DNA of 64,000 nt from Candidatus Anaeroferrophillus wilburensis (GTDB lineage Bacteria > Desulfobacterota > Anaeroferrophillalia > Anaeroferrophillales > Anaeroferrophillaceae): assembly GCA_016934315.1 (NCBI GenBank), contig JAFGSY010000010.1, positions 1-64,000 on the forward strand, read 5' to 3'. The notes below the pieces were generated by a model. The model saw only the letters and a program-made list of their open reading frames with translations, searched no databases and had not been told where the DNA came from. This document shows, piece after piece, positions 150 through 13,693 of the stretch. Position 1 is the first letter of the stretch, and every line of letters starts with the position of its first letter. A program made the translations under genes and the position numbers.

Positions 150-177
150 TTGACTTTGCAAGTAAGTCGGCTATAGT
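150..177 (+). promoter_or_regulatory. Sigma-70-type promoter of the adhesin transcript
   Basis: The -35 box TTGACT (150-155) and -10 box TATAGT (172-177) are 16 bases apart. Transcription would start near 184, giving a leader of about 240 bases that contains the riboswitch. Bases 71-149 upstream are AT-rich with no other feature seen. Confidence 0.6.
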
Positions 178-232
178 AGACAATGAAAGAGAAGCTCTTG
201 ATTGTAGGTGCTTTTTCGGTTTTGATGTTGTT

Positions 233-308
233 GGAACAGCATAAAGCCAAACCTATCGTGAGATAGGGACGGAAAGCCACGGGTTTCAGCTGAAACAGCC
301 GGGTTGCC
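233..308 (+). ncRNA. GEMM-I (cyclic di-GMP-I) riboswitch aptamer
   Basis: The conserved GEMM core is present: CCAAACC, a hairpin of TATC/GATA capped by a GNRA-type GTGA loop, GGGACGGAAAGCC, then a second hairpin (GGTTTC, AGCT loop, GAAAC) followed by AGCCGGGTTGCC. The closing helix pairs GGAAC (233-237) with GTTGCC (303-308), with one bulged G. Compared with the Vc2 aptamer (alignment from memory), the G21-C46 pair is flipped to C-G, a compensatory change that supports the fold. The ligand-contacting base at position 20 appears to be G, which favours cyclic di-GMP over cyclic AMP-GMP. It lies in the leader of a giant adhesin gene. Confidence 0.88.
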
Positions 309-333
309 TTGAATGAGGTAGCCCGGTTTTTTT
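299..333 (+). terminator. Riboswitch expression-platform terminator
   Basis: A 10-bp stem (299-308 with 317-326, two G-U pairs) with an 8-base loop is followed by seven T residues. Its 5' arm is the same segment that closes the aptamer, so the two folds exclude each other. Ligand binding should hold 303-308 in the aptamer and prevent termination, predicting an ON switch. Confidence 0.82.
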
Positions 334-421
334 GTTGATAGAAAAATCAGGAGTTTCATGTTGATTTGGAGCTCCCGGGATGAAGTTCAGGCAGCCATCA
401 AGAGGTGAAAAGGAGAACCCC

Positions 422-3400
422 ATGGCCAGCAAGAGAATCTCTGAAAACCCTAAAAAAACAAGGTCCAATAGTGGTCTTCCGTTTTCATGGCATAGGCCGT
501 TTATGGCGAAAAAAATTGTTTTTGCCTTCAGGGTTTTTTGCTTCAGAGAGCTGTTTTTTTTGGCAGCCATTGCATGCTGCCTGCCGTCGGCAATGGCTGC
601 CGGTCCATGGATTCAGGATGGTAATACCATGACCTGCACCGGTGAGCAGCTAAATGGCATTGAGATTCACGATAACAGTCTGACGACGCTGAACGTCTTG
701 GATCTTGATCCCAATCTCATCCAACCTGGTGGCCATGGGGTAAACGGTATTGCTTTCAAAAACAACGCGGGCGGTAATATCACCATCAACAGCGGTGAAT
801 CCCAGTCTTCTGTGGTCATCACCACGGTCACCGATCAGGCGTCCGGCATTGTTGCCGAGAGCAAGGGCAGCCCGCCACCGGCGCCCAACGATCCGTTATT
901 GAATATTCCTATTCCCGGAACACCGGAGGTGTCCGGCGGGGTGGTCGGAGTGCTGAGCTTCAGCGAGATCACCACCAGTGGCAGCCATGCCCATGGGATA
1001 GCGGCCTACAGCAACACCACCGGCTACGGTGGTTCGGTGATCAGTTCGCTGGAAAACTTTTCCGATGCCGGGATTGTTTTCCAGGTAGTGTCAGTCAAAA
1101 ATCCGGATGGATCGGAAGCGGGTGACTGGAATCAGGTGCAGGGGCGCATCCTGGAACTGGATGCTGATAACCTGTTTGTCGGCTACGGCGATGAAGCAGG
1201 GACCTTTACTTTGGCTGTGGATGGCAGTTGTGCTTTTAATCCCGGGACAGCATTTGATGATCTGGCGTTGGGTGAGTCTCGGACTGTTTCGGTGAGTTAC
1301 GCCCTTGATGGCTATCGGGGTGGGGATCTGAAGCGTGAGGATATCAACGCGGAACTGTTTGCCACGGTGACCAGGACCGAGAGCGGTCTCGAAACAGTAA
1401 CCCATGCCTACTTTGATGACTATGGCGAAAGCTCAAGGCCGCACGATGAGCAGCTGGTGCTGCCCGACCTTTATAGCTACGTGGGAGGCTTGATCGGCAT
1501 TGCCAGCGAGGCTGGTGGGGCCGGCAACAGTGTTTCCGTGATCAATCAGGGAAGCATCGCCACCAGTGGTGCCGCTTCCCATGGCATCTTTGCCGAAAGC
1601 AGGGGCAACTCAGGTGGCGGCGGCAGAAACGGCGGCGGTTTCTGGAGCTTTGGCTCACGCAGACCGACGGCGGGGGGTGACGGTTCAGATGGCGGCAATG
1701 TTTCAGTAATCGTTGAAGGGATGATCTCGACCACCTATGAGACCAGTTTGGACAAGCCCGAGGATGCCGGCTACGGGGTGCTCGCAATCAGCCGGGGCGG
1801 CAATGGCGGCCGGGGTGGCAATGGCGGTACCTACTATGACGGCCGGCGGGGCGGCACCGGCGGTGACGGTGGTCTGGTGGAAGTTTTTGGCAGCGGCACG
1901 ATTTCTACCCTAGGCAACTACGCTTCCGGCATCATGGCGGTCAGTCAGGGCGGTTTTGGCGGCAATGGTGGTGACGGCGGCTTTGTTACCGATGGCAGCC
2001 ATGGCGGTTTTGGGGGCATGGGTGGGACAGTGGATGTCGATGGGAACTGGGATATTACGACTGAAGGGGAAAAGGCCCATGGGATCTGGGCAAAAAGTAT
2101 CGGCGGCAATGCCGGCATGGGCGGCAGCGGTGGTTGGCTAGCCGGTCAGCCGGCCCCCGGAGGACAGGCAACCGACGGCGGTACTGTGAGCCTTTTCAGC
2201 GGCGGTATCATAGAAACATTTGGCAATGATGCGTTTGGTCTCTACGGCCAGAGTGTTGGTGGTTTCGGTGGCCAGGGCGGTAGCGGCGGCAGCATCTTCT
2301 ATTCCTCCGGTGGCGATGGCGCCAGTGCCGGCAGCGGTGGAATGGTCACGGTCGTCAACACCGCTGACGGTATTGTTAGTACCCATGGAGCCCGAGCCCA
2401 CGCGGTCTATGCCCAGAGTGTGGGCGGCGGCGGTGGCAGCGGCGGCGGTGCCGGCGCAATTGTTGGGGTTGGCGGCACCGGGGCGGCCGGCGGGCATGGT
2501 GGTGATGTGGATGTTGGTAATGATGGCCAGATTTTGACCTTTGGTGAAAACTCACGGGGCATCTATGCCCAGAGCATCGGCGGCGGCGGCGGCGACGGCG
2601 GTGATTCCGGCGGCCTGGTGGCTATTGGCGGGGCCGGCAGCGGCACCAGTGACGGTGGCCGGGTCACGGTTGTCAACACCGGAACCATTGCAACCGAGGG
2701 CGCGCAGTCGATTGCCATTTTTGCTGAAAGCATCGGCGGCGGCGGTGGTGACGGCGGTTCCAGCTCAGGTCTGGTGTCCATTGGCGGTGACGGTGGCGGT
2801 GGCGGTGACGCCGATAATGTTGTCGTTGATAACAGTGGCCAGCTTAAGACATTGCTGGAGGATTCCAGCGGTATATTTGCTCAAAGTGTTGGTGGCGGCG
2901 GTGGTAACGGCGGTGGTTCCTACAGCAGCGGCGGGTCGGTCAGCGTTGCTATTGGCGGCAATGGGGCCGAAGGGGGTGATGCCGGTGAACTGGTGGCGGT
3001 GACCAGCAGCGGTTCCATTGAGACAGCCGGGGAGCGTTCCCATGGTATTTTTGCCCAGAGTGTGGGCGGCGGTGGCGGCAATGGCGGTTATGCCATCAGC
3101 ATGTCCCAGGGTAGCGGTTTGTCGCTGAGCGTTGCTCTGGGCGGCAATGGCGGTCTGGGGGGTGCCGGCAACGCGGTGGTCATCGACAGTGAGAGTTTGA
3201 TTGTTACCGAAGGATCGGATGCCCACGGTATTTTTGCCCAGAGTGTGGGCGGTGGCGGCGGTTCCGGTGGTTTTAGTGTTGCCCTGGCAACCGGCGGTTT
3301 TGCCGGCTCTTTGGCCATGGGCGGTCAGGGAGAGGCCGGTGGTGATGCTGGCGAGGTGACGGTTGACAGCAGCGGGATGATCGATACTTCAGGCAACCAT

Positions 3401-6400
3401 GCCTACGGCATCTTGGCGCAGAGCGTCGGTGGCGGCGGTGGTGATGGTGGTTTCAGCATTGCTGGGGCTGCCGGCGGTGGTGCGGTAAGTCTTGGTTTTG
3501 GCGGCAGCGGCAGCGGTGGTGGTGACGGCAGTATGGTGCTGCTCACCAGTGGCAGCAGTATTACGACCCGGGGGACGGATGCCCATGCCATGGTAGTGCA
3601 GAGTGTGGGTGGTGGTGGCGGTTCGGGTGGTTTCAGTGGTGCCGGCGCTGTGGGTGGTGTGGGTGCCGGGTTGAGCTTTGGCGGTTCCGGTGGCGGCGGT
3701 GGCGAAGGTGGCCAAGTCAGTCTCAGCAGCCTTGGTGAAACCATGGTAACCTTTGGTGATCATAGCTATGGGATGCTGGCGCAGAGTGTGGGCGGCGGCG
3801 GTGGTGATGGCGGTTTCAGCATCGGCCTTGGGGCCGGCAAGTTTTCCGGTGCCTTCAGTATGGGTGGCAGCGGTGCCGGTGGCGGCAGCGGCCACGAGGT
3901 GAACCTCTATAGTGAAAGTGCTGTTATCACTGAAGGCGATGACGCCCATGGGATTGTCGCCCAGAGTGTGGGCGGTGGCGGTGGTTCCGGTGGTTTCAGT
4001 ATTGCGGTTGCTCTGAGCCTCGAAGGAGGGATTGCTGCGAGCCTGGGTGGCTCCGGAGGCGGCGGTGGTGATGGGGGTGCCGTATTTGTTGGCGGTGATC
4101 CTGCTGCCGGCCAGCAGGAGGCTATCCACGGTGATATTGCGACGTTTGGTGATCATGCCTATGGCATTCTGGCGCAGAGCGTGGGCGGCGGCGGCGGTGA
4201 CGGGGGTTTCAGCATTGCCGGGGCCTTGAGTCTGTCCGGCCCGACGGCCGCTTTCAGCCTGGGTGGCAGTGGCAATGGCGGTGGTTTTGGCAGTAATGTT
4301 GAACTTTACAGTATGAATACTATTACTACCGTAGGCACCGATGCTCACGGGGTCGTTGTTCAGAGTGTGGGTGGTGGCGGTGGTTCCGGAGGATTCAGTG
4401 TTGCCGGCGGAGCTTCGGCGGGCAGTGTCGGCATTGGTGCCAGTATTGGCGGCAGTGGCGCCGGCGGCGGTGGTGCCGGTATTGTTACCGCCGACCTGCA
4501 GGGTGATATTGCGACGTTTGGCGACCACGCCTATGGCATTCTGGCGCAGAGTGTGGGCGGCGGCGGTGGTGACGGTGGTTTCAGTATTGCCGGGGCAATC
4601 AGTAAAGGCCCGGCGGTCACCTTCAGCCTTGGTGGCGGTGGCGGTGCGGGTGGTAGCGGCGAATTGGTCGATGTCAGCAGCACCGGCGATATTTATACCG
4701 ATGGTGTCGATTCTTACGGACTTTTTGCCCAGAGTGTGGGTGGTGGCGGTGGTTCCGGTGGTTTCAGTATTGCCGGCAGTTTTGCTGCTGACAGTGGCGG
4801 CCTCAGTGCCAGTCTGGGCGGTTTTGGCGACCAGGGTGGTGACGCCGGTGAGGTGATTGTTGACCAGCGCGGCATGATTACGACCCGCAGCGATGGATCT
4901 CACGGCCTAGTGGCCCAGAGCGTCGGCGGGGGTGGTGGCGCCGGCGGTTTTTCCGGTGCCATTACCGGTGCCTTTGGCGATGGTGCCAGTGTTGCCCTGA
5001 GTGTCGGTGGTTTTGGTGGTGAGGGCGGTGATGGCAACCTGGTAGATGTCGATAATAGTGGTCCTGTTTCTACTCTCGGTGCCGGTGCCTACGGTATTCT
5101 GGCTCAGAGCGTCGGCGGCGGCGGTGGTGACGGCGGCGACAGCGTCAGCGTCGCCATTGGCAAGGAAGATAAGCAGGTCAATCTGTCGGTTGCCGTTGGT
5201 GGCTTTGGCGGTCCTGGCGGTACCGGTGGCAGCGTTGAACTTGACAATCAAGGACTGGTGCAGACCGCCGGCAGCAAAGCCCATGGCATCTATGCTCAGA
5301 GCGTCGGTGGCGGCGGTGGTAATGGCGGTTTCAGTGCCACCGGTTCTCTCAGTGCCGGTACCAGCAGCAAACAATTGGCGGTTGCTATTGGCGGTTTTGG
5401 TGGACCCGGCAGCAACAGCGGATCGGTGACCGTCGCCAACAGCGGCGATATTATGATTAGTGGTGAGCAATCAGCCGGCATCTATGCTCAGAGCGTTGGT
5501 GGCGGTGGTGGCGACGGCGGCTTCAGTTTTGCCGGTTCCTTTGCCGGCCCGGAGGCGAAAAATCTTTCGGTGGCGGTCGGCGGCTTCGGCGGCGATGGTG
5601 GTTACGCCGGTGCGGTGGTGGTGAACAACAGCGGAATCATCGATACGATTGAAGATTTTTCCCATGGCATTCAGGCCCAGAGCATTGGTGGCGGCGGTGG
5701 CAATGGGGGGACGAGTGTTGCTCTAGACTTTGGTGTTTCAACCAAGAGCGGCGCTAATCATAATGTTGCCGTTTCGGTGGGTGGCAGCGGTGGTGATGGC
5801 AATACTGCCGGTACGGTGGAAGTGGTCAACAGCAACATGATTACTACACGGGGTATTGCCTCCCATGGTATTCAGGCCCAGAGCCTCGGCGGTGGTGGTG
5901 GCAACGGTGGCTACAGCCTGGCCGGGACGATTAGTTTTGAGAAAAAAACCGGTGATGATGAAGCCAAACAGCCGGTTAATGTCAGCATGGCGATTGGCGG
6001 CGGCGGCGGAGACGGCAATGATGGCGGTTCGGTGGACGTCGAAAACAGCGGTGTCATTGATACCTCCGCCGATGGTTCCCATGGTATTTTTGCCCAGAGC
6101 ATCGGCGGCGGCGGTGGTACCGGCGGCTGTTCGCGGGCACTGACCCTGGATGTCAACCCTGAAGACTGGATCCCGACGTTTGAAAAAGAAGATTTCAATG
6201 ACTTTTGCTCCGATTTGTTCAGCACCTGGAATCTGGCGGTCGGCGGTGCCGGTGGTGGCGCCAGTGACGGCGGGCTGGTGACGATTACCAACCAGAATGT
6301 CATTATTACCCGAGGTGCCGACGCCCATGGTATTTTTGTCCAGAGCATCGGCGGCGGTGGTGGGGCAGGGGGCGATGCTGCCCATGGTATTCCTTTTGTC

Positions 6401-9019
6401 CCCACTTGGCTTGAACCTTTTCTTGAACTGACGCCGCTAAAAGGCCTGGAGGATATGCAGATCGTGGTCGGTGGTTCTGGCGGCAGCAGCGGCAATGGCA
6501 AAAAGGTCAGTATTAGCAATGAAAGTGATGTTGCAACCTTCGGTGATGGTTCCTGTGGCATTTTTGTCCAGAGCATCGGCGGTGGTGGTGGGGTTGGCGG
6601 CAGTGGTGCCCAGGGTCTGGTGGGCAATATCGGTATAGGTGGCGCCGCCGGGGCTGCCGGCAATGGTGGTGAGGTGGCGGTTAGCCATGATGGCCGGATC
6701 GAAACCGCTGGCGCGGCCGCCTACGGCATCTTTGCCCAGAGTGTGGGGGGTGGCGGTGGGATGGCTGGCAATGTTGATCGGGGGTTGTTTGATCTTGGGA
6801 TTGGCTATTCATTTGCCCAATCCGGTGGTGGTGGCGGTGACGGTGGTCGGGTTGAGGTTGTCAGCCGCGGTGATATTGTCACCAAAGGTGAGGGTGCCAA
6901 CGGCATTGTTGCCCAGAGTGTGGGCGGTGGCGGTGGAATCGCCGGTGATACGGGCCTGGGCATCGGTTTTGCCGGCAGTGTCGGCGGTGATGGCTCAGGG
7001 GGCGTGGTCAAGGTCACCCATGAGGGAACCATTAGCACCAGTGGTGCTCATTCCCACGGTATTGTCGCCCAGAGTGCCGGTGGCAATGATGTTGGTGGTG
7101 CCGTTACCATAACCCTTGCCGGTGATATTACGGTTATAGGTGATGGTTCCGATGCTCTTGTTGCCCAGAGCCGCGGGGATCAGGGCGGCGGGATGATTAC
7201 CGTACAGATCAGCAGCGGCACCGTGCAGGGAGGTGGAGGTTCTGCTGCCGGAATACGGATTATTGACGGCAATGATAACCTGCTTACCAACGAAGGGACG
7301 CTTCTAGCTTTGAGCGGGAGTGCAATTATTGCCGGAGATTGCAACGATACCGTCAGCAATGGTGGCACGATTATCGGTTCGGTTGATTTGGGTCTGGGCT
7401 CTAATGCGTTCAACAATCGAGCCGGCGGCCGTTTTGAAGCCGGGCCAATGATTACGATTGGTGCCGGCAATCAATTGTTAAATGCCGGGGTGTTATCTCC
7501 GGGAGGTAAGGAAACTTTTCAAACCACGGTGTTTTCTGGTAACCTGGTGCAAGCGGATACGGGGGTTGTAGAGGCCAATATTTCCGGTTCCGGTGTCCAT
7601 GACCAACTGCTGGTTGATGGTGCCGTTTCGCTTGCTGGAACCTTGTCGGTGATCAGGGGGCAAGGCCCCTATTTTGATGGAACCTCTTACGAGCTTATCA
7701 GAGTGGATGATCCCGGCTCCATGACCGGGAGTTTTGGTACCTATGACCTGCCTGAAGCCAAACCGCTGCTCAGCTTTCAGGTCAATGAATTGCCTGAGGC
7801 CGTGCAGTTGGAGACCCATGCCCCTAGCTTTACAACGGTGGCCGAAAATCCGATGGAGCTGTCCCTGGGCAAGTGTTTTGATGATACCCTGCTGTCAGCC
7901 GACGGTGATTGGTCAACCATTCTTGCTGAGTTTCAGCTGCTGTCGGCTGATGACTTTGCCGAAGCCTTCCTGTCCATCAGTCCAGCCGCCTACGGCAATG
8001 CCACCAGCGTGACCGAAACTGTTGCTCAGGAATATCTCCGTGCCTTGGAAAAGCGGCTTGGCGGCCTGCGGATGACCAACAACGGCCTTCGTGCCCAAAC
8101 TGATAATGAACCACTGCTGCTGGCCTATAACGGTTCGGACGCGGGCATCGGCCAACTGTTAAACAGAGGCTTGGAGCCGGAAAACCCGCAGTACGGACTG
8201 TGGCTTGACGGATTCGGACGCTGGGGAGATGAGGATGGCAGCAATGGTTTTCACGGTTTTGATTACCGGGTGGCCGGCATCTTGGGAGGTTTTGATTATC
8301 TGTTGACGGATCAGCTTACGGTTGGCGTAAGCCTGGGGTATTCCCGTACCGATGTAGATCTTGACGGCAGCCTGGGAGACAGCGATATCAACAGTACCTT
8401 CGGTTCCCTGTATGGTAGTTATGTCCAAGGCAGCACCTACCTCGATGCGGCCTTGTCCTATGGCAGACAGCATTATAAAAACAGTCGGCTTGCGGTTGTC
8501 GGCCCGCTGCTGCGCATTGCCCGGAGCCATCACGATGGTGATCTCTATGGAGCTTTTGTTGAAGGGGGCTATGTGCACCGGCTTGATGGATGGGCTTTAA
8601 GTCCTTTTGTCTCCTTGCAGTATGCCGTTCTGAATGAAGATGGTTTTTCTGAAACCGGCGCTGACAGCTTAAACTTGACCATTGGTGATCGGTCTGCCGA
8701 CTCCCTTTCTTCAGAGTTGGGGGTCAGGGTTGCCCGGGTCATCGAGCGGCCGGAAGGACAATGGATTCCTGAACTTTCCCTCTCATGGCTGCATGATTTT
8801 GATCTTGATGATCAGATGATCAGCGCTGCTTTTGCCGGTGCGCCGGCCAGTGAATTTACCATTGAAGGTCAGGATCTGCAAAAGGACAGTGCTATGATTG
8901 GTGGGGCTGTCTCTCTGGTTCGCAACGGTGGTTGTTCACTGTCCTTACGGTACAGTGGTGAGTTTCGTGGCAGTTATAAGGCACATGGGTTGGTGGCAAA
9001 AATCCGTTACAAATTCTGA
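422..9019 (+). CDS. Giant repeat-rich autotransporter adhesin (type Va)
   Basis: A predicted outer-membrane adhesin of about 2,865 residues. An in-frame ATG lies at 380, but the ATG at 422 has a good AAGGAG site six bases upstream and is preferred. The N-terminus has a long basic region, then a hydrophobic signal segment ending near AMA. A VCBS-like module (about nt 1020-1450) precedes at least 32 copies of a unit whose core reads HGI.AQSVGGGGG.GGFS. After the repeats (about 7200-7900) comes beta-helix sequence with NGGTI.GSVDLG motifs. The last 275 residues or so form an autotransporter beta-barrel with alternating strands and a terminal phenylalanine. Two RGD triplets occur near the end of the repeats (about 6870 and 7170). 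Control by the upstream riboswitch is inferred. Role in surface attachment or biofilm is inferred from architecture; the binding target is unknown. Confidence 0.88.
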   Translation: MASKRISENPKKTRSNSGLPFSWHRPFMAKKIVFAFRVFCFRELFFLAAIACCLPSAMAAGPWIQDGNTMTCTGEQLNGIEIHDNSLTTLNVLDLDPNLIQPGGHGVNGIAFKNNAGGNITINSGESQSSVVITTVTDQASGIVAESKGSPPPAPNDPLLNIPIPGTPEVSGGVVGVLSFSEITTSGSHAHGIAAYSNTTGYGGSVISSLENFSDAGIVFQVVSVKNPDGSEAGDWNQVQGRILELDADNLFVGYGDEAGTFTLAVDGSCAFNPGTAFDDLALGESRTVSVSYALDGYRGGDLKREDINAELFATVTRTESGLETVTHAYFDDYGESSRPHDEQLVLPDLYSYVGGLIGIASEAGGAGNSVSVINQGSIATSGAASHGIFAESRGNSGGGGRNGGGFWSFGSRRPTAGGDGSDGGNVSVIVEGMISTTYETSLDKPEDAGYGVLAISRGGNGGRGGNGGTYYDGRRGGTGGDGGLVEVFGSGTISTLGNYASGIMAVSQGGFGGNGGDGGFVTDGSHGGFGGMGGTVDVDGNWDITTEGEKAHGIWAKSIGGNAGMGGSGGWLAGQPAPGGQATDGGTVSLFSGGIIETFGNDAFGLYGQSVGGFGGQGGSGGSIFYSSGGDGASAGSGGMVTVVNTADGIVSTHGARAHAVYAQSVGGGGGSGGGAGAIVGVGGTGAAGGHGGDVDVGNDGQILTFGENSRGIYAQSIGGGGGDGGDSGGLVAIGGAGSGTSDGGRVTVVNTGTIATEGAQSIAIFAESIGGGGGDGGSSSGLVSIGGDGGGGGDADNVVVDNSGQLKTLLEDSSGIFAQSVGGGGGNGGGSYSSGGSVSVAIGGNGAEGGDAGELVAVTSSGSIETAGERSHGIFAQSVGGGGGNGGYAISMSQGSGLSLSVALGGNGGLGGAGNAVVIDSESLIVTEGSDAHGIFAQSVGGGGGSGGFSVALATGGFAGSLAMGGQGEAGGDAGEVTVDSSGMIDTSGNHAYGILAQSVGGGGGDGGFSIAGAAGGGAVSLGFGGSGSGGGDGSMVLLTSGSSITTRGTDAHAMVVQSVGGGGGSGGFSGAGAVGGVGAGLSFGGSGGGGGEGGQVSLSSLGETMVTFGDHSYGMLAQSVGGGGGDGGFSIGLGAGKFSGAFSMGGSGAGGGSGHEVNLYSESAVITEGDDAHGIVAQSVGGGGGSGGFSIAVALSLEGGIAASLGGSGGGGGDGGAVFVGGDPAAGQQEAIHGDIATFGDHAYGILAQSVGGGGGDGGFSIAGALSLSGPTAAFSLGGSGNGGGFGSNVELYSMNTITTVGTDAHGVVVQSVGGGGGSGGFSVAGGASAGSVGIGASIGGSGAGGGGAGIVTADLQGDIATFGDHAYGILAQSVGGGGGDGGFSIAGAISKGPAVTFSLGGGGGAGGSGELVDVSSTGDIYTDGVDSYGLFAQSVGGGGGSGGFSIAGSFAADSGGLSASLGGFGDQGGDAGEVIVDQRGMITTRSDGSHGLVAQSVGGGGGAGGFSGAITGAFGDGASVALSVGGFGGEGGDGNLVDVDNSGPVSTLGAGAYGILAQSVGGGGGDGGDSVSVAIGKEDKQVNLSVAVGGFGGPGGTGGSVELDNQGLVQTAGSKAHGIYAQSVGGGGGNGGFSATGSLSAGTSSKQLAVAIGGFGGPGSNSGSVTVANSGDIMISGEQSAGIYAQSVGGGGGDGGFSFAGSFAGPEAKNLSVAVGGFGGDGGYAGAVVVNNSGIIDTIEDFSHGIQAQSIGGGGGNGGTSVALDFGVSTKSGANHNVAVSVGGSGGDGNTAGTVEVVNSNMITTRGIASHGIQAQSLGGGGGNGGYSLAGTISFEKKTGDDEAKQPVNVSMAIGGGGGDGNDGGSVDVENSGVIDTSADGSHGIFAQSIGGGGGTGGCSRALTLDVNPEDWIPTFEKEDFNDFCSDLFSTWNLAVGGAGGGASDGGLVTITNQNVIITRGADAHGIFVQSIGGGGGAGGDAAHGIPFVPTWLEPFLELTPLKGLEDMQIVVGGSGGSSGNGKKVSISNESDVATFGDGSCGIFVQSIGGGGGVGGSGAQGLVGNIGIGGAAGAAGNGGEVAVSHDGRIETAGAAAYGIFAQSVGGGGGMAGNVDRGLFDLGIGYSFAQSGGGGGDGGRVEVVSRGDIVTKGEGANGIVAQSVGGGGGIAGDTGLGIGFAGSVGGDGSGGVVKVTHEGTISTSGAHSHGIVAQSAGGNDVGGAVTITLAGDITVIGDGSDALVAQSRGDQGGGMITVQISSGTVQGGGGSAAGIRIIDGNDNLLTNEGTLLALSGSAIIAGDCNDTVSNGGTIIGSVDLGLGSNAFNNRAGGRFEAGPMITIGAGNQLLNAGVLSPGGKETFQTTVFSGNLVQADTGVVEANISGSGVHDQLLVDGAVSLAGTLSVIRGQGPYFDGTSYELIRVDDPGSMTGSFGTYDLPEAKPLLSFQVNELPEAVQLETHAPSFTTVAENPMELSLGKCFDDTLLSADGDWSTILAEFQLLSADDFAEAFLSISPAAYGNATSVTETVAQEYLRALEKRLGGLRMTNNGLRAQTDNEPLLLAYNGSDAGIGQLLNRGLEPENPQYGLWLDGFGRWGDEDGSNGFHGFDYRVAGILGGFDYLLTDQLTVGVSLGYSRTDVDLDGSLGDSDINSTFGSLYGSYVQGSTYLDAALSYGRQHYKNSRLAVVGPLLRIARSHHDGDLYGAFVEGGYVHRLDGWALSPFVSLQYAVLNEDGFSETGADSLNLTIGDRSADSLSSELGVRVARVIERPEGQWIPELSLSWLHDFDLDDQMISAAFAGAPASEFTIEGQDLQKDSAMIGGAVSLVRNGGCSLSLRYSGEFRGSYKAHGLVAKIRYKF
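1500..7190 (+). repeat. Tandem glycine-rich coding repeats within the adhesin
   Basis: At least 32 degenerate units of roughly 55-75 codons, each with the core (A/S)(H/Y)GI.AQS(V/I)GGGGG.GG. In the middle (about 3215-4770) the units alternate strictly: AH-type cores ending SGGFS and AY/SY-type cores ending DGGFS. A 59-base stretch at 4130 recurs at 4502 with four mismatches, an offset of 372 bases (124 codons). This indicates expansion by duplication of a two-unit block. Early (before 2400) and late (after 6700) units are the most diverged. Confidence 0.9.
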
Positions 9020-9186
9020 TGTCGGATCATCCATCTGCCATTTCCTGCCAGGCCTTTTCAGTCACCGGCTGGTGGTACAAGAGTGAGCAAAGATCTGTGC
9101 GTTGTAGTTTCTCACAGCTTCATGCAGCTTGTATTGCCCGATCAGGGTTGTAAGTTGGCAGCAGAAAAAAACAAGAGATATGATTG

Positions 9187-9214
9187 ACGGGCAGGGGATT
9201 TCCTGCCCGTTTTA
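9187..9214 (+). terminator. Intrinsic terminator after the adhesin gene
   Basis: A 9-bp stem (9187-9195 with 9202-9210) has a six-base loop followed by TTTT. It lies 168 bases after the adhesin stop; the stretch between holds no gene I can support. Confidence 0.75.
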
Positions 9215-9261
9215 CTTGCGGGAAATGGCCCAAAGCTTTCTGCCGTTGTGGGAATTGGCGT

Positions 9262-9359: not shown

Positions 9360-10112
9360 ATGTCTGATCAGGCCGGACTGTCAGCTGCTGTCCACGGTAG
9401 ATATGCACATGAGGTGGTGTTTGCCGCCGCCGGGCTGACAAAAGTCTACCAGATGGGCGAAGTCCAGGTTCATGCCCTGCGCGGGGTTGATCTGACTCTC
9501 TATGCCGGTGAACTGGTGGTGTTGCTGGGGCCTTCCGGCAGCGGTAAATCCACTTTGTTAAACATCATCGGTGGCTTGGATGTTCCCAGCAGCGGTACCT
9601 TGCGCTATCAGGGCCAGGAGTTGATTGGTGCGTCCGACCGGGAGCTGACCGATTTCCGACGCCATCATATCGGTTTTGTCTTCCAGTTTTACAACCTGAT
9701 CCCCAGCCTCACCGCCCGGGAGAATATTGCGGTGGTTACCGAAATCTCGCCGGCGCCGATGGCGCCGGCGGCAGCACTGGAGCTGGTCGGTCTTGGGGAC
9801 CGACTGGATCATTTCCCGGCCCAGCTTTCCGGCGGCGAACAGCAGCGGGTGGCCATCGCCCGGGCGATCGCCAAAAATCCTTCTGTGCTCCTTTGCGATG
9901 AGCCCACCGGGGCCCTTGATTCCACCACCGGTATTGTGGTGCTGGAAGCGCTGGCCCGTATCAATCAGGAATTGGGCACCACCACGGTGCTGATCACCCA
10001 CAATGCCGTTATTGCGGAGATGGCTGACCGGGTAATCCGTTTGGCGGATGGTATTATTGTCGGGGTCAACTATCCGGAGCGCAAGAAAAGTCCCAAAGAA
10101 TTGAACTGGTGA
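9360..10112 (+). CDS. ABC transporter ATP-binding protein (MacB/LolD/YbbA type)
   Basis: Cytoplasmic ATPase of an exporter-type ABC system, about 250 residues. It shows Walker [11 protein letters not shown]-loop FVFQ, signature [14 protein letters not shown], Walker [13 protein letters not shown] and the switch histidine in LITHN. The frame is open further upstream to 9129, but the ATG at 9360 has GGAG six bases before it and gives the family's usual length. It is followed 16 bases later by its permease and then by a membrane-fusion adaptor. This three-gene order is typical of MacAB-like or YbbAP-like exporters. The substrate cannot be read from the sequence. Confidence 0.92.
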
Positions 10113-10128
10113 TCAAGGCAAGGTGTTC

Positions 10129-12492
10129 ATGAACTCTCTGGATCGCAAACGATGGCGTGACTTCTGGCATCTTCGCGGCCAGGTGGTTGCCATTACCCTG
10201 GTGGTTGCCAGCGGGGTGGCCATCGCTATCATGTCCCTTTCCACCCTCTACTCGCTTCGCCAAACCCGATCGCTCTATTATCAGCAAAATCGTTTTGCCG
10301 AGGTGTTTGCCGAGCTCAAAAGGGCGCCGGAGTCCCTGCGCCGTCGTTTGGCAGCAATTCCCGGCATGGGTATAGTTGAAACGCGGGTGGTGGCGGCTGC
10401 CAGCCTGAGAATTGCCGGTTGTGATGAACCGGTTACCGGCCAGCTGATTGCCATTCCCGAACAGCGTGATGTCTGGCTTAACCGGCTGACGGTGCGGCAT
10501 GGCCGGCTGGTGGAGCCTGATCGGGATGATGAGGTGGTGATCAGTGAGTCGTTTGCTCGCGCCCACCGCTTTTCTCCGGGGGATACCCTGACGGTGATTA
10601 TCAACGGTCGGCAGCAAAACCTGGAGATTGTCGGCATTGCCCTGTCGCCCGAATTTGTCTACGAGGCGAAACCCGGTTCTTTGCTGCCCGATTACAAACG
10701 TTTCGGCATTCTTTGGCTCGGACGGAAAGCCTTGGAAAATGCCTATGATATGGAGGGGGCGTTCAATAATGTGGTGGCCACCCTGGGGTCGGGGGCGGTC
10801 ATTGGCAGTGTGGTTGACCGGCTGGATCAGTTGCTGGAACCCTACGGTGGCCAGGGGGCGTACGGGCGCGCTGAGCAGTTGTCGCACCGCTATCTCAGCG
10901 AGGAATTTCGCCAGCTGGAACAGATGGCCACCATCTATCCGACTATTTTCCTCGGGGTGGCGGCTTTCCTGCTCCATGTGGTGATTTCCCGGCTGGTTCA
11001 CACCGAACGACAGCAGATTGCCATTCTGAAAGCGTTCGGCTATCAGAACGGGGTTATTGGGCTGCACTATTTCAGACTGGTGATGATGATCGTCCTGGTG
11101 GGGGTTGCCTGCGGTGTTGCCGTCGGTGTGTGGCTCGGGCGGCATTTGAGCGAACTCTATATGGAGTATTACCGCTTTCCCTTCCTCTCCTATACGGTGA
11201 GTCCAGGTGTTGTGGCCGCGGTGGCGGCGGTGACGGTACTGGCTGCGGCCCTGGGGACCGTCTGGTCAGTGAGTGGCGCTGTCCGATTGCCGCCGGCGGT
11301 TGCCATGCGCCCGGCACCGCCGGCAGTCTATCGGCCAAGCTGGCTTGAACGTCTGGGGCTGCAGCGTTTTTTCTCCCAGCCGGCCAGGATGGTTATCCGC
11401 CATCTCGAACGCCAGCCCCTGAGAAGCGGACTTACCATTATCGGGATTGCCATGGCCGGGGCTATCCTCATGGTCGGCAGCATTTTTCAGAATTCCATCG
11501 AATATCTGGTTGATGTTCATTTCGGTCTGGCCCACCGGGAAGATCTGACGGTTGCCTTTGTTGAACCGACGGCCAGCCGGTCCCTCTATGAACTGCAGCG
11601 TTATCCCGGCGTCATTTGGGGGGAAGTCTATCGCACCGTGCCGGTGCGTTTGCGCAGCCGGCACCGCCAGTACCGTACCGCAGTGATGGGGGTTCGGCCG
11701 GAGAATGAACTGCATCGCTTGCTTGACCGCGACCTGCAGCCGTTCCAGCCGTCGCCGGCCGGCATCATGCTTACCGACCAGCTGGGCAGCATCCTCCAGG
11801 TCAAGGAGGGCGACCGGCTGACGGTGGAAGCCTTGGAGGGGCGTCGTCCGGTGCGGGAGTTGACCGTCGCCGGGCTGGTGAAGGAATATGTGGGGGTTTC
11901 AGCATATATGGAGCTGGCTGCTTTGAACCGCTTTATGGCGGAGGGAGAGCTGGTCTCCGGGGTCTATCTGCGGGTTGATGAGGACCGGTTACCGGCAGTC
12001 TATGCGGCGTTGAACACCATGCCCCGGGTAGCAGGGACGGTGGTTCAACGGCATGCGGTGGAAAGCTTCTATGAAACCATGGCTGAACAGGTGCTGATTT
12101 TCACCTTTTTTGTGACCATGTTTGCCGGTATTATCGCTTTCGGCGTGGTCTACAACAGTGCCCGGATTTCCCTGGCCGAGCGGGGACGGGAGCTGGCCAG
12201 CCTACGGGTTCTGGGTTTCAGCCGGCGGGAAATTTCCGCCATACTCCTGGGGGAGCTGGCGATCCTGACTCTGGCGGCGATTCCCCTTGGCTTTCTGGCA
12301 GGGTATGGTTTATGCTTCTACATCATTTCATATCTGCAGACCGATTTGTATAGGATTCCCCTGGTGATTGATGGTTCTACCTATGCCTTTTCAGCCGTCA
12401 TGGTTTTGCTGGCCGCCGGCATTTCAGGATTGCTGGTCCGTCGGCGTCTGGATCATCTGGATTTGATCGCCGTTCTCAAAACAAGGGAGTAA
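10129..12492 (+). CDS. FtsX/MacB-family ABC transporter permease
   Basis: Large inner-membrane permease of about 787 residues. A first transmembrane helix near residues 18-40 is followed by a periplasmic core-type domain, then an FtsX helix bundle at about 265-395. A second membrane-anchored periplasmic domain starts near 425 and a second FtsX bundle lies at about 655-785. Both bundles carry the typical loop in which a helix ends with [14 protein letters not shown] or [14 protein letters not shown]. Two FtsX domains in one chain resemble YbbP-type permeases rather than the single-domain MacB. A GTG two codons upstream (10123) is an alternative start; ATG 10129 has AAGG five bases before it. 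The stop is followed one base later by the adaptor gene. Confidence 0.9.
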
Positions 12493-12493
12493 C

Positions 12494-13693
12494 ATGGCTG
12501 TGCAGTGGCGAAAATATGTGTTCATAACCATTGGTATCGGGTTGGTGGTGCTAGGTATTGTCTATGGTTTCTGGCCACGACCGGTGATGGTGGAAACAGC
12601 TGCGGTTGAGCGGGGTCCCCTGACGGTTACGATTGCCGAGGAGGGCAAGGCGAGGGTCGTTGATCGCTATCTGCTGTCAGCTCCGATTGCCGGTTTTGTC
12701 CGCCGGCTCACCTGGGATGTGGGGGATAAGATTGGTGTCGGTGAAAGGGTGGCTGAGCTGCTGCCGCTCACGGAGGAGATGCTTGATCGTCGCAGTCGTG
12801 CCCAAGCCGAAGCAAAGGTTGCCGCTGCCCGGGCAGCATTACAGGCTACCCGTGAGCAGGTTGTTGCGGCCCGGGCAGCGATGGAACTGGCCCAAGTGAA
12901 GGAAGCGCGGCTGCAGCAGCTGGTGGCTACCGACAGTGCGGCGCGGGAATCGCTGGATGAGGCAGAAAGCCGGGCCAGAACTAGCGAGGCAGCGCTGCGG
13001 TCAGCTGAGTTTATGGTCCAAGTTGCCGGCTATGAACTGGAGGCGGCGCTGGCGGTGCTGCAGATCTCGGCTGCGGAAATGGTTCCCGAACCACGTGAGC
13101 AAGTGGTAATCAAGGCGCCGGCAGCTGGCAGGGTCCTGGCGGTCTACCATGAAAGTGCCGGCGTCGTTGGAGCTGGAGAAGCACTGCTGGAAGTGGGCGA
13201 TCCCCGTTCCCTGGAAGTGGAGGTAGATCTTTTGTCAGCTGATGCAGTACGGGTAGCTGCTGGAACCCCAGTGATTTTTGAGCACTGGGGAGGGGAAGAC
13301 CCGTTGCATGGCGTGGTTAAAAGGGTGGAACCCCGTGGTTTTACCAAGATATCAGCCCTCGGGGTGGAGGAACAGCGGGTGCTGGTTATTGTTGATTTTA
13401 CCTCGTCTGCAGAGGAGTGGGAGCGTCTGGGTGACGGCTATCGTCTGGATGCCCGCTTTATCCTGTGGCATGACGATGATGTGCTGCAGGTGCCGAGCAG
13501 CTCCCTCTTCCGGGAGGCAGGCCGCTGGGCGGTGTTTGTTGTCGAGCGGGGCCGGGCTCGCCAACAGCTGGTGGAGGTTGGCCGGCACGGCGGACTGCAG
13601 GTCCAGATCCTTGCCGGCCTGGCAGAGGGTCAGCAGGTCATTATCCACCCTTCCGCCAAGGTTGAGGCTGGCCGGCGGATTGCCCGCCGCTGA
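12494..13693 (+). CDS. Periplasmic adaptor (HlyD/MacA-type membrane-fusion protein)
   Basis: An adaptor of 399 residues that would link the ABC permease to an outer-membrane channel. One transmembrane anchor (about residues 8-28) is followed by a half lipoyl domain (LSAPIAGFVRRL), an alanine- and glutamate-rich coiled-coil hairpin (about 100-190) and the second lipoyl half (VIKAPAAGRVLAVY). A beta-barrel region and C-terminal membrane-proximal domain end with IIHPSAKVEAGRRI. The start has GGGAG upstream and lies one base after the permease stop, so the genes are co-transcribed. No TolC-like gene is present in the window. Confidence 0.9.
   Translation: MAVQWRKYVFITIGIGLVVLGIVYGFWPRPVMVETAAVERGPLTVTIAEEGKARVVDRYLLSAPIAGFVRRLTWDVGDKIGVGERVAELLPLTEEMLDRRSRAQAEAKVAAARAALQATREQVVAARAAMELAQVKEARLQQLVATDSAARESLDEAESRARTSEAALRSAEFMVQVAGYELEAALAVLQISAAEMVPEPREQVVIKAPAAGRVLAVYHESAGVVGAGEALLEVGDPRSLEVEVDLLSADAVRVAAGTPVIFEHWGGEDPLHGVVKRVEPRGFTKISALGVEEQRVLVIVDFTSSAEEWERLGDGYRLDARFILWHDDDVLQVPSSSLFREAGRWAVFVVERGRARQQLVEVGRHGGLQVQILAGLAEGQQVIIHPSAKVEAGRRIARR

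Follow-up and report, generated by a model that had tools for sequence, protein, structure and literature searches.

The window analysed here is a stretch of 64,000 nucleotides from Candidatus Anaeroferrophillus wilburensis (contig JAFGSY010000010.1, positions 1 to 64,000 of the forward strand). The contig begins within what is apparently the 3' end of a tRNA gene, and a terminator-like stem comes next (1-67). Beyond it lies a leader that precedes a very long open reading frame, and the features of this locus are as follows:

150-177, + strand: candidate sigma-70-type promoter, TTGACT-16-TATAGT (consensus score 10/12)
218-248, + strand: predicted hairpin masking the aptamer 5' strand including G20-C22, a possible competitor (-12.6 kcal/mol)
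236-312, + strand: c-di-GMP-I (GEMM-I) aptamer (Rfam matches, contact residues, P2/P3 covariation)
297-335, + strand: intrinsic terminator, arms 298-310 and 315-327 followed by T7 (folding, covariation, conserved overlap)
407-424, + strand: AGGAG-like ribosome binding site (AAAAGGAGAACCCC) and start codon ATG at 422 (sequence)
422-9019, + strand: type V autotransporter of 2,865 aa, a probable adhesin (open reading frame, PF03797, repeats)
8198-8956, + strand: autotransporter beta-domain PF03797 (227.6 bits, E 2.8e-67)
9186-9217, + strand: terminator-like inverted repeat after the gene (GGGCAGG...CCTGCCCGTTTT), found by eye and missed by the terminator scan

A preliminary description of this DNA had proposed an autotransporter of roughly 2,865 residues as the target of a riboswitch, and the reading frame from the ATG at 422 to 9019 bears this out. 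The protein has the marks of a classical type V protein, namely a C-terminal PF03797 barrel and an aromatic last residue (it ends in IRYKF). The barrel was matched when the C-terminus was scanned alone; a Pfam scan of the whole protein missed it. Glycine makes up 25% of the residues, and there are about 25 repeats of about 60 aa each with the motif QS(V/I)GGGGG. Judged by these repeats and the type of secretion, the protein is probably an adhesin. The inverted repeat at 9186-9217 suggests a single-gene transcript. Farther downstream (9360-13693) lie genes for an ABC ATPase, a MacB/FtsX permease and HlyD, apparently on a separate transcript.

We searched the 64 kb with Rfam covariance models. 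RF01051, the model on which the preliminary description had staked its riboswitch, matched at 236-311 with 64 bits against a gathering cut-off of 35, and its sister RF03167 ('c-di-GMP-I-GGC') matched at 237-312 with 66.9 bits (cut-off 59, E 1.3e-13). The GEMM-I aptamer, earlier placed at 233-308, is thus recovered by both models at 236-312. Rfam alignments and a script were used to place P2 at 252-257/262-267 with a GUGA loop and P3 at 275-305, and to transfer position numbering from RF01051 and RF03167. The basal pairs are C21-G46 (C247-G272) and C22-G45 (C248-G271); the register of the very short P1 is uncertain. All of the canonical c-di-GMP contacts are present: G20 at 246, A47 at 273 and C92 at 307. 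We take C92 to be the first C of UGCC, following the numbering of the cGAMP aptamer. The published account of C75 in the pilM riboswitch (PMC9262584) also entered into this assignment, and the contacts in Vc2 are likewise G20, A47 and C92 (PMC4744006). Across 32 aligned leaders, compensatory changes altered both sides in 9 of 20 P2/P3 pairs, with 49 double-change cells in the aptamer compared with 14.9 in shuffles and 19 in the terminator arm compared with 9.1; since possession of a terminator was the criterion by which these leaders were selected, the percentage paired in the terminator is biased.

The 3' portion of the aptamer is also part of a terminator. The terminator scan found a stem of 14 pairs (297-328) that closes a 4-nt loop and is followed by a T run, and the 5' arm of this stem is shared with P3 and C92, so that C92 (C307) pairs with G318. 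The earlier statement that the 5' arm (299-308) is the closing strand of the aptamer proved correct; this segment pairs with 317-326. Because the terminator reuses 298-310 and pairs C92 with G318, the ligand-bound aptamer and the terminator should be mutually exclusive, which predicts an ON switch. The ON direction that had been proposed on the grounds of mutually exclusive pairing therefore holds computationally. The minimum-energy fold of the leader (184-335) contains the terminator, at -58.3 kcal/mol versus -43.9 kcal/mol with the aptamer fold imposed. When the growing chain was folded, P3 was complete at 308-317 and the terminator took over at 323-326; free folding gave an aptamer-like P3 in the transcript ending at 312 and the terminator once its 3' arm emerged. 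Since the folds favour the terminator from that point on, the decision would have to be kinetic, as argued for pilM.

Our main reading, to which we assign a probability of about 0.85, is that a transcriptional riboswitch of c-di-GMP class I (GEMM-I) precedes the gene of a giant autotransporter, a probable adhesin, and is predicted to act as an ON switch. In the absence of ligand, the strand at 315-327 would capture 298-310, the aptamer's 3' strand with its ligand-pairing C92; the terminator would form and transcription would stop near 335. If c-di-GMP instead binds before the 3' arm has been transcribed, the strand would stay in P3 and the pocket, the terminator would be blocked, and the polymerase would proceed into the giant autotransporter gene. 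The protein is probably exposed on the surface, where it may serve in attachment or aggregation.

As a further check on the overlap, we fetched 56 GEMM-I loci of the order in addition to that of the window; two of the 56 lie in the window's own genome. Among the 52 scorable GEMM-I RNAs of the order, the window included, C92 falls within a terminator of 9 or more pairs in 35 cases, compared with 1.1% when the downstream sequence was shuffled; the design is therefore routine in this lineage. Among loci found by pattern in diverse named genomes, 37 of the 81 that could be scored had such a terminator (0.6% in shuffles). An initial, looser score for the overlap was discarded because it gave 37-52% positives in shuffles.

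Several alternatives concern the ligand. A whole-genome search found three GEMM-I RNAs in the 2.7-Mb genome, and their alignments give G20 in all three. The genome also encodes 13 GGDEF domains, 12 of which have a readable motif; all 12 have D at the GHxxGD position and none has the serine of Hypr (cGAMP) enzymes, the position being that known from PleD, WspR and GacA. Because of G20 and the missing Hypr serine, c-di-GMP appears from sequence to be the most likely ligand. A preference for 3',3'-cGAMP, as in the GEMM-Ib type, would leave the ON logic unchanged, and the C21-G46 pair together with the terminator arrangement resembles the Geobacter cGAMP switches. Some relatives in family f2 have A20, the GEMM-Ib hallmark of cGAMP binding, but this aptamer has G246 at that position and both other copies in the genome agree with it. 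Changes of P2 bases affect ligand selectivity (PMC9262584), which counts for cGAMP; against it, the A20G change made a Geobacter GEMM-Ib RNA selective for c-di-GMP (PMC6456294). With the GGDEF domains also on the side of c-di-GMP, we consider a cGAMP preference improbable here. In family f2, GEMM-I RNAs with A20 (cGAMP type) occur alongside G20 copies (L077, L098, L100, L102, L105, L110, L113 and L123), and the order may therefore make use of both ligands. The slightly better score of RF03167 could be taken to mean a c-di-GMP-I-GGC variant with a divergent ligand and a different specificity, but the additional score stems from the remaining sequence rather than from the pocket. The consensus of RF03167 has G47, which we take to be the G meant by 'GGC', judging from the consensus lines of the two models, whereas the window aptamer has A47 (A273) like RF01051, as does the survey's best RF03167 match among relatives (L007). 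Having A47, the aptamer is no GGC variant in its pocket, and we regard a divergent specificity as very improbable. The Rfam label 'c-di-GMP-I-GGC' needs position 47 checked before it is read as denoting a variant of the ligand pocket.

A different doubt concerns the sequence upstream of the aptamer. What had been called a good promoter (TTGACT-16-TATAGT) is not distinguishable from chance, with 1 candidate found versus 1.1 expected per kb in shuffled sequence. If it is real, transcription would start near 184, and the hairpin at 218-248, which was missing from the preliminary description, would then compete with the ligand pocket. The probability that N20-22 pair upstream is 0.998 in the window, the highest of 164 related leaders, so that an intact aptamer could have its 5' strand trapped and regulation could be weak or broken in this copy. 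This would hang on the unproven start site, however, and the pocket is fully conserved. Moreover, 8.7% of shuffles yield an equally stable hairpin, and the class shows no enrichment for one (0.38 real versus 0.44 shuffled), the comparison on which an upstream anti-aptamer hairpin was rejected as a class feature. We give little credence to a broken copy, and retain the predicted c-di-GMP ON switch as our reading of the locus.

The association of such a switch with an autotransporter is found again outside this genome. Among the 198 genomes surveyed in the phylum, autotransporters over the cut-off were present in 36 and GEMM-I RNAs in at least 89. The N-terminal region of the window autotransporter occurs in 3 of 395 genomes. 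One of these (G146, family f62, another family of the same phylum) encodes a 1,709-aa homologue, 43-45% identical to the window protein and with about 8 repeats, whose gene is preceded by a GEMM-I RNA with an overlapping terminator; the pairing therefore recurs. In the third (G001), the contig begins inside the leader. The linkage thus holds in two of the two cases where the upstream region is visible, few cases but suggestive. Elsewhere in G001 (L025), a cobalamin riboswitch (1095-1312) precedes a GEMM-I RNA (1500-1582) on the same strand by about 190 nt. The barrel used as a query against the genome contigs found no relative, and no GEMM-I match lies near the second giant autotransporter of the genome, of 1,730 aa (L128, G000:C14:110618-111430). 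A bolder proposal would be that the riboswitch and an autotransporter of variable repeat length form a unit conserved across distant Thermodesulfobacteriota families (the same two of two), with the extra 5' hairpin serving here as a second lock on the aptamer, one that opposes the ligand; we think this unlikely.

Precedents exist for the logic, the architecture and the adhesin theme. The logic is that of Bc2-cap in Bacillus thuringiensis, a class I c-di-GMP antitermination switch shown experimentally to control an adhesion protein (PMC4933901): the ligand prevents a terminator and a surface adhesion protein is switched on. There, however, the target is a Gram-positive collagen adhesion protein, while here it is a type V autotransporter of Thermodesulfobacteriota and the switch is predicted. 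The architecture is that of the pilM riboswitch of Geobacter metallireducens, an ON switch whose terminator sequesters C75 and which loses ligand binding at length 102 (PMC9262584). Both RNAs have a GEMM-I fold and a terminator that reuses the 3' strand of the aptamer and masks the ligand-pairing C (C75 in pilM, C307 here), with ON predicted here; pilM differs in responding to cGAMP and controlling a pilus gene. Vc1-gbpA of Vibrio cholerae, likewise a GEMM-I RNA with the G, A and C contacts, upregulates a colonization factor, but it has no apparent terminator and its mechanism is unknown (PMC4744006). In Clostridioides difficile, c-di-GMP likewise turns on predicted adhesins through Cdi-2-1 and Cdi-2-3, although these are class II aptamers and the proteins are sortase-dependent (PMC6366702). 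The same review lists Bc2-cap and warns against extrapolating the direction of control between species. Judged by title and abstract, the accessible literature, which leaves out most subscription papers, names GEMM-I and autotransporters only apart, and no paper found in it has an autotransporter as the target of a GEMM-I RNA. The circuit type is known elsewhere, and an autotransporter target in this bacterial group appears undescribed. In other words, the locus is well supported and ordinary in kind, and what is new is its target and lineage.

The overlapping terminator is missing from both remaining GEMM-I RNAs of the genome, which may therefore rely on a different platform. One lies directly before a gene for a six-CxxCH cytochrome (L070, G000:C27:20841-25500); the end of its aptamer nearly reaches the ribosome site, a terminator is absent, and control of this gene is perhaps translational. 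The other precedes a secreted H-lectin/TSP3/fn3 protein (L069, G000:C40:5500-10000), and a different hairpin, with no T run, follows its aptamer. The three targets, an autotransporter, a multihaem cytochrome and a lectin, suggest a small c-di-GMP surface regulon. Within it, the switch described here, if it binds c-di-GMP as predicted, would give this second messenger a direct, RNA-only route to a very large type V surface protein, in a lineage that has been little studied.
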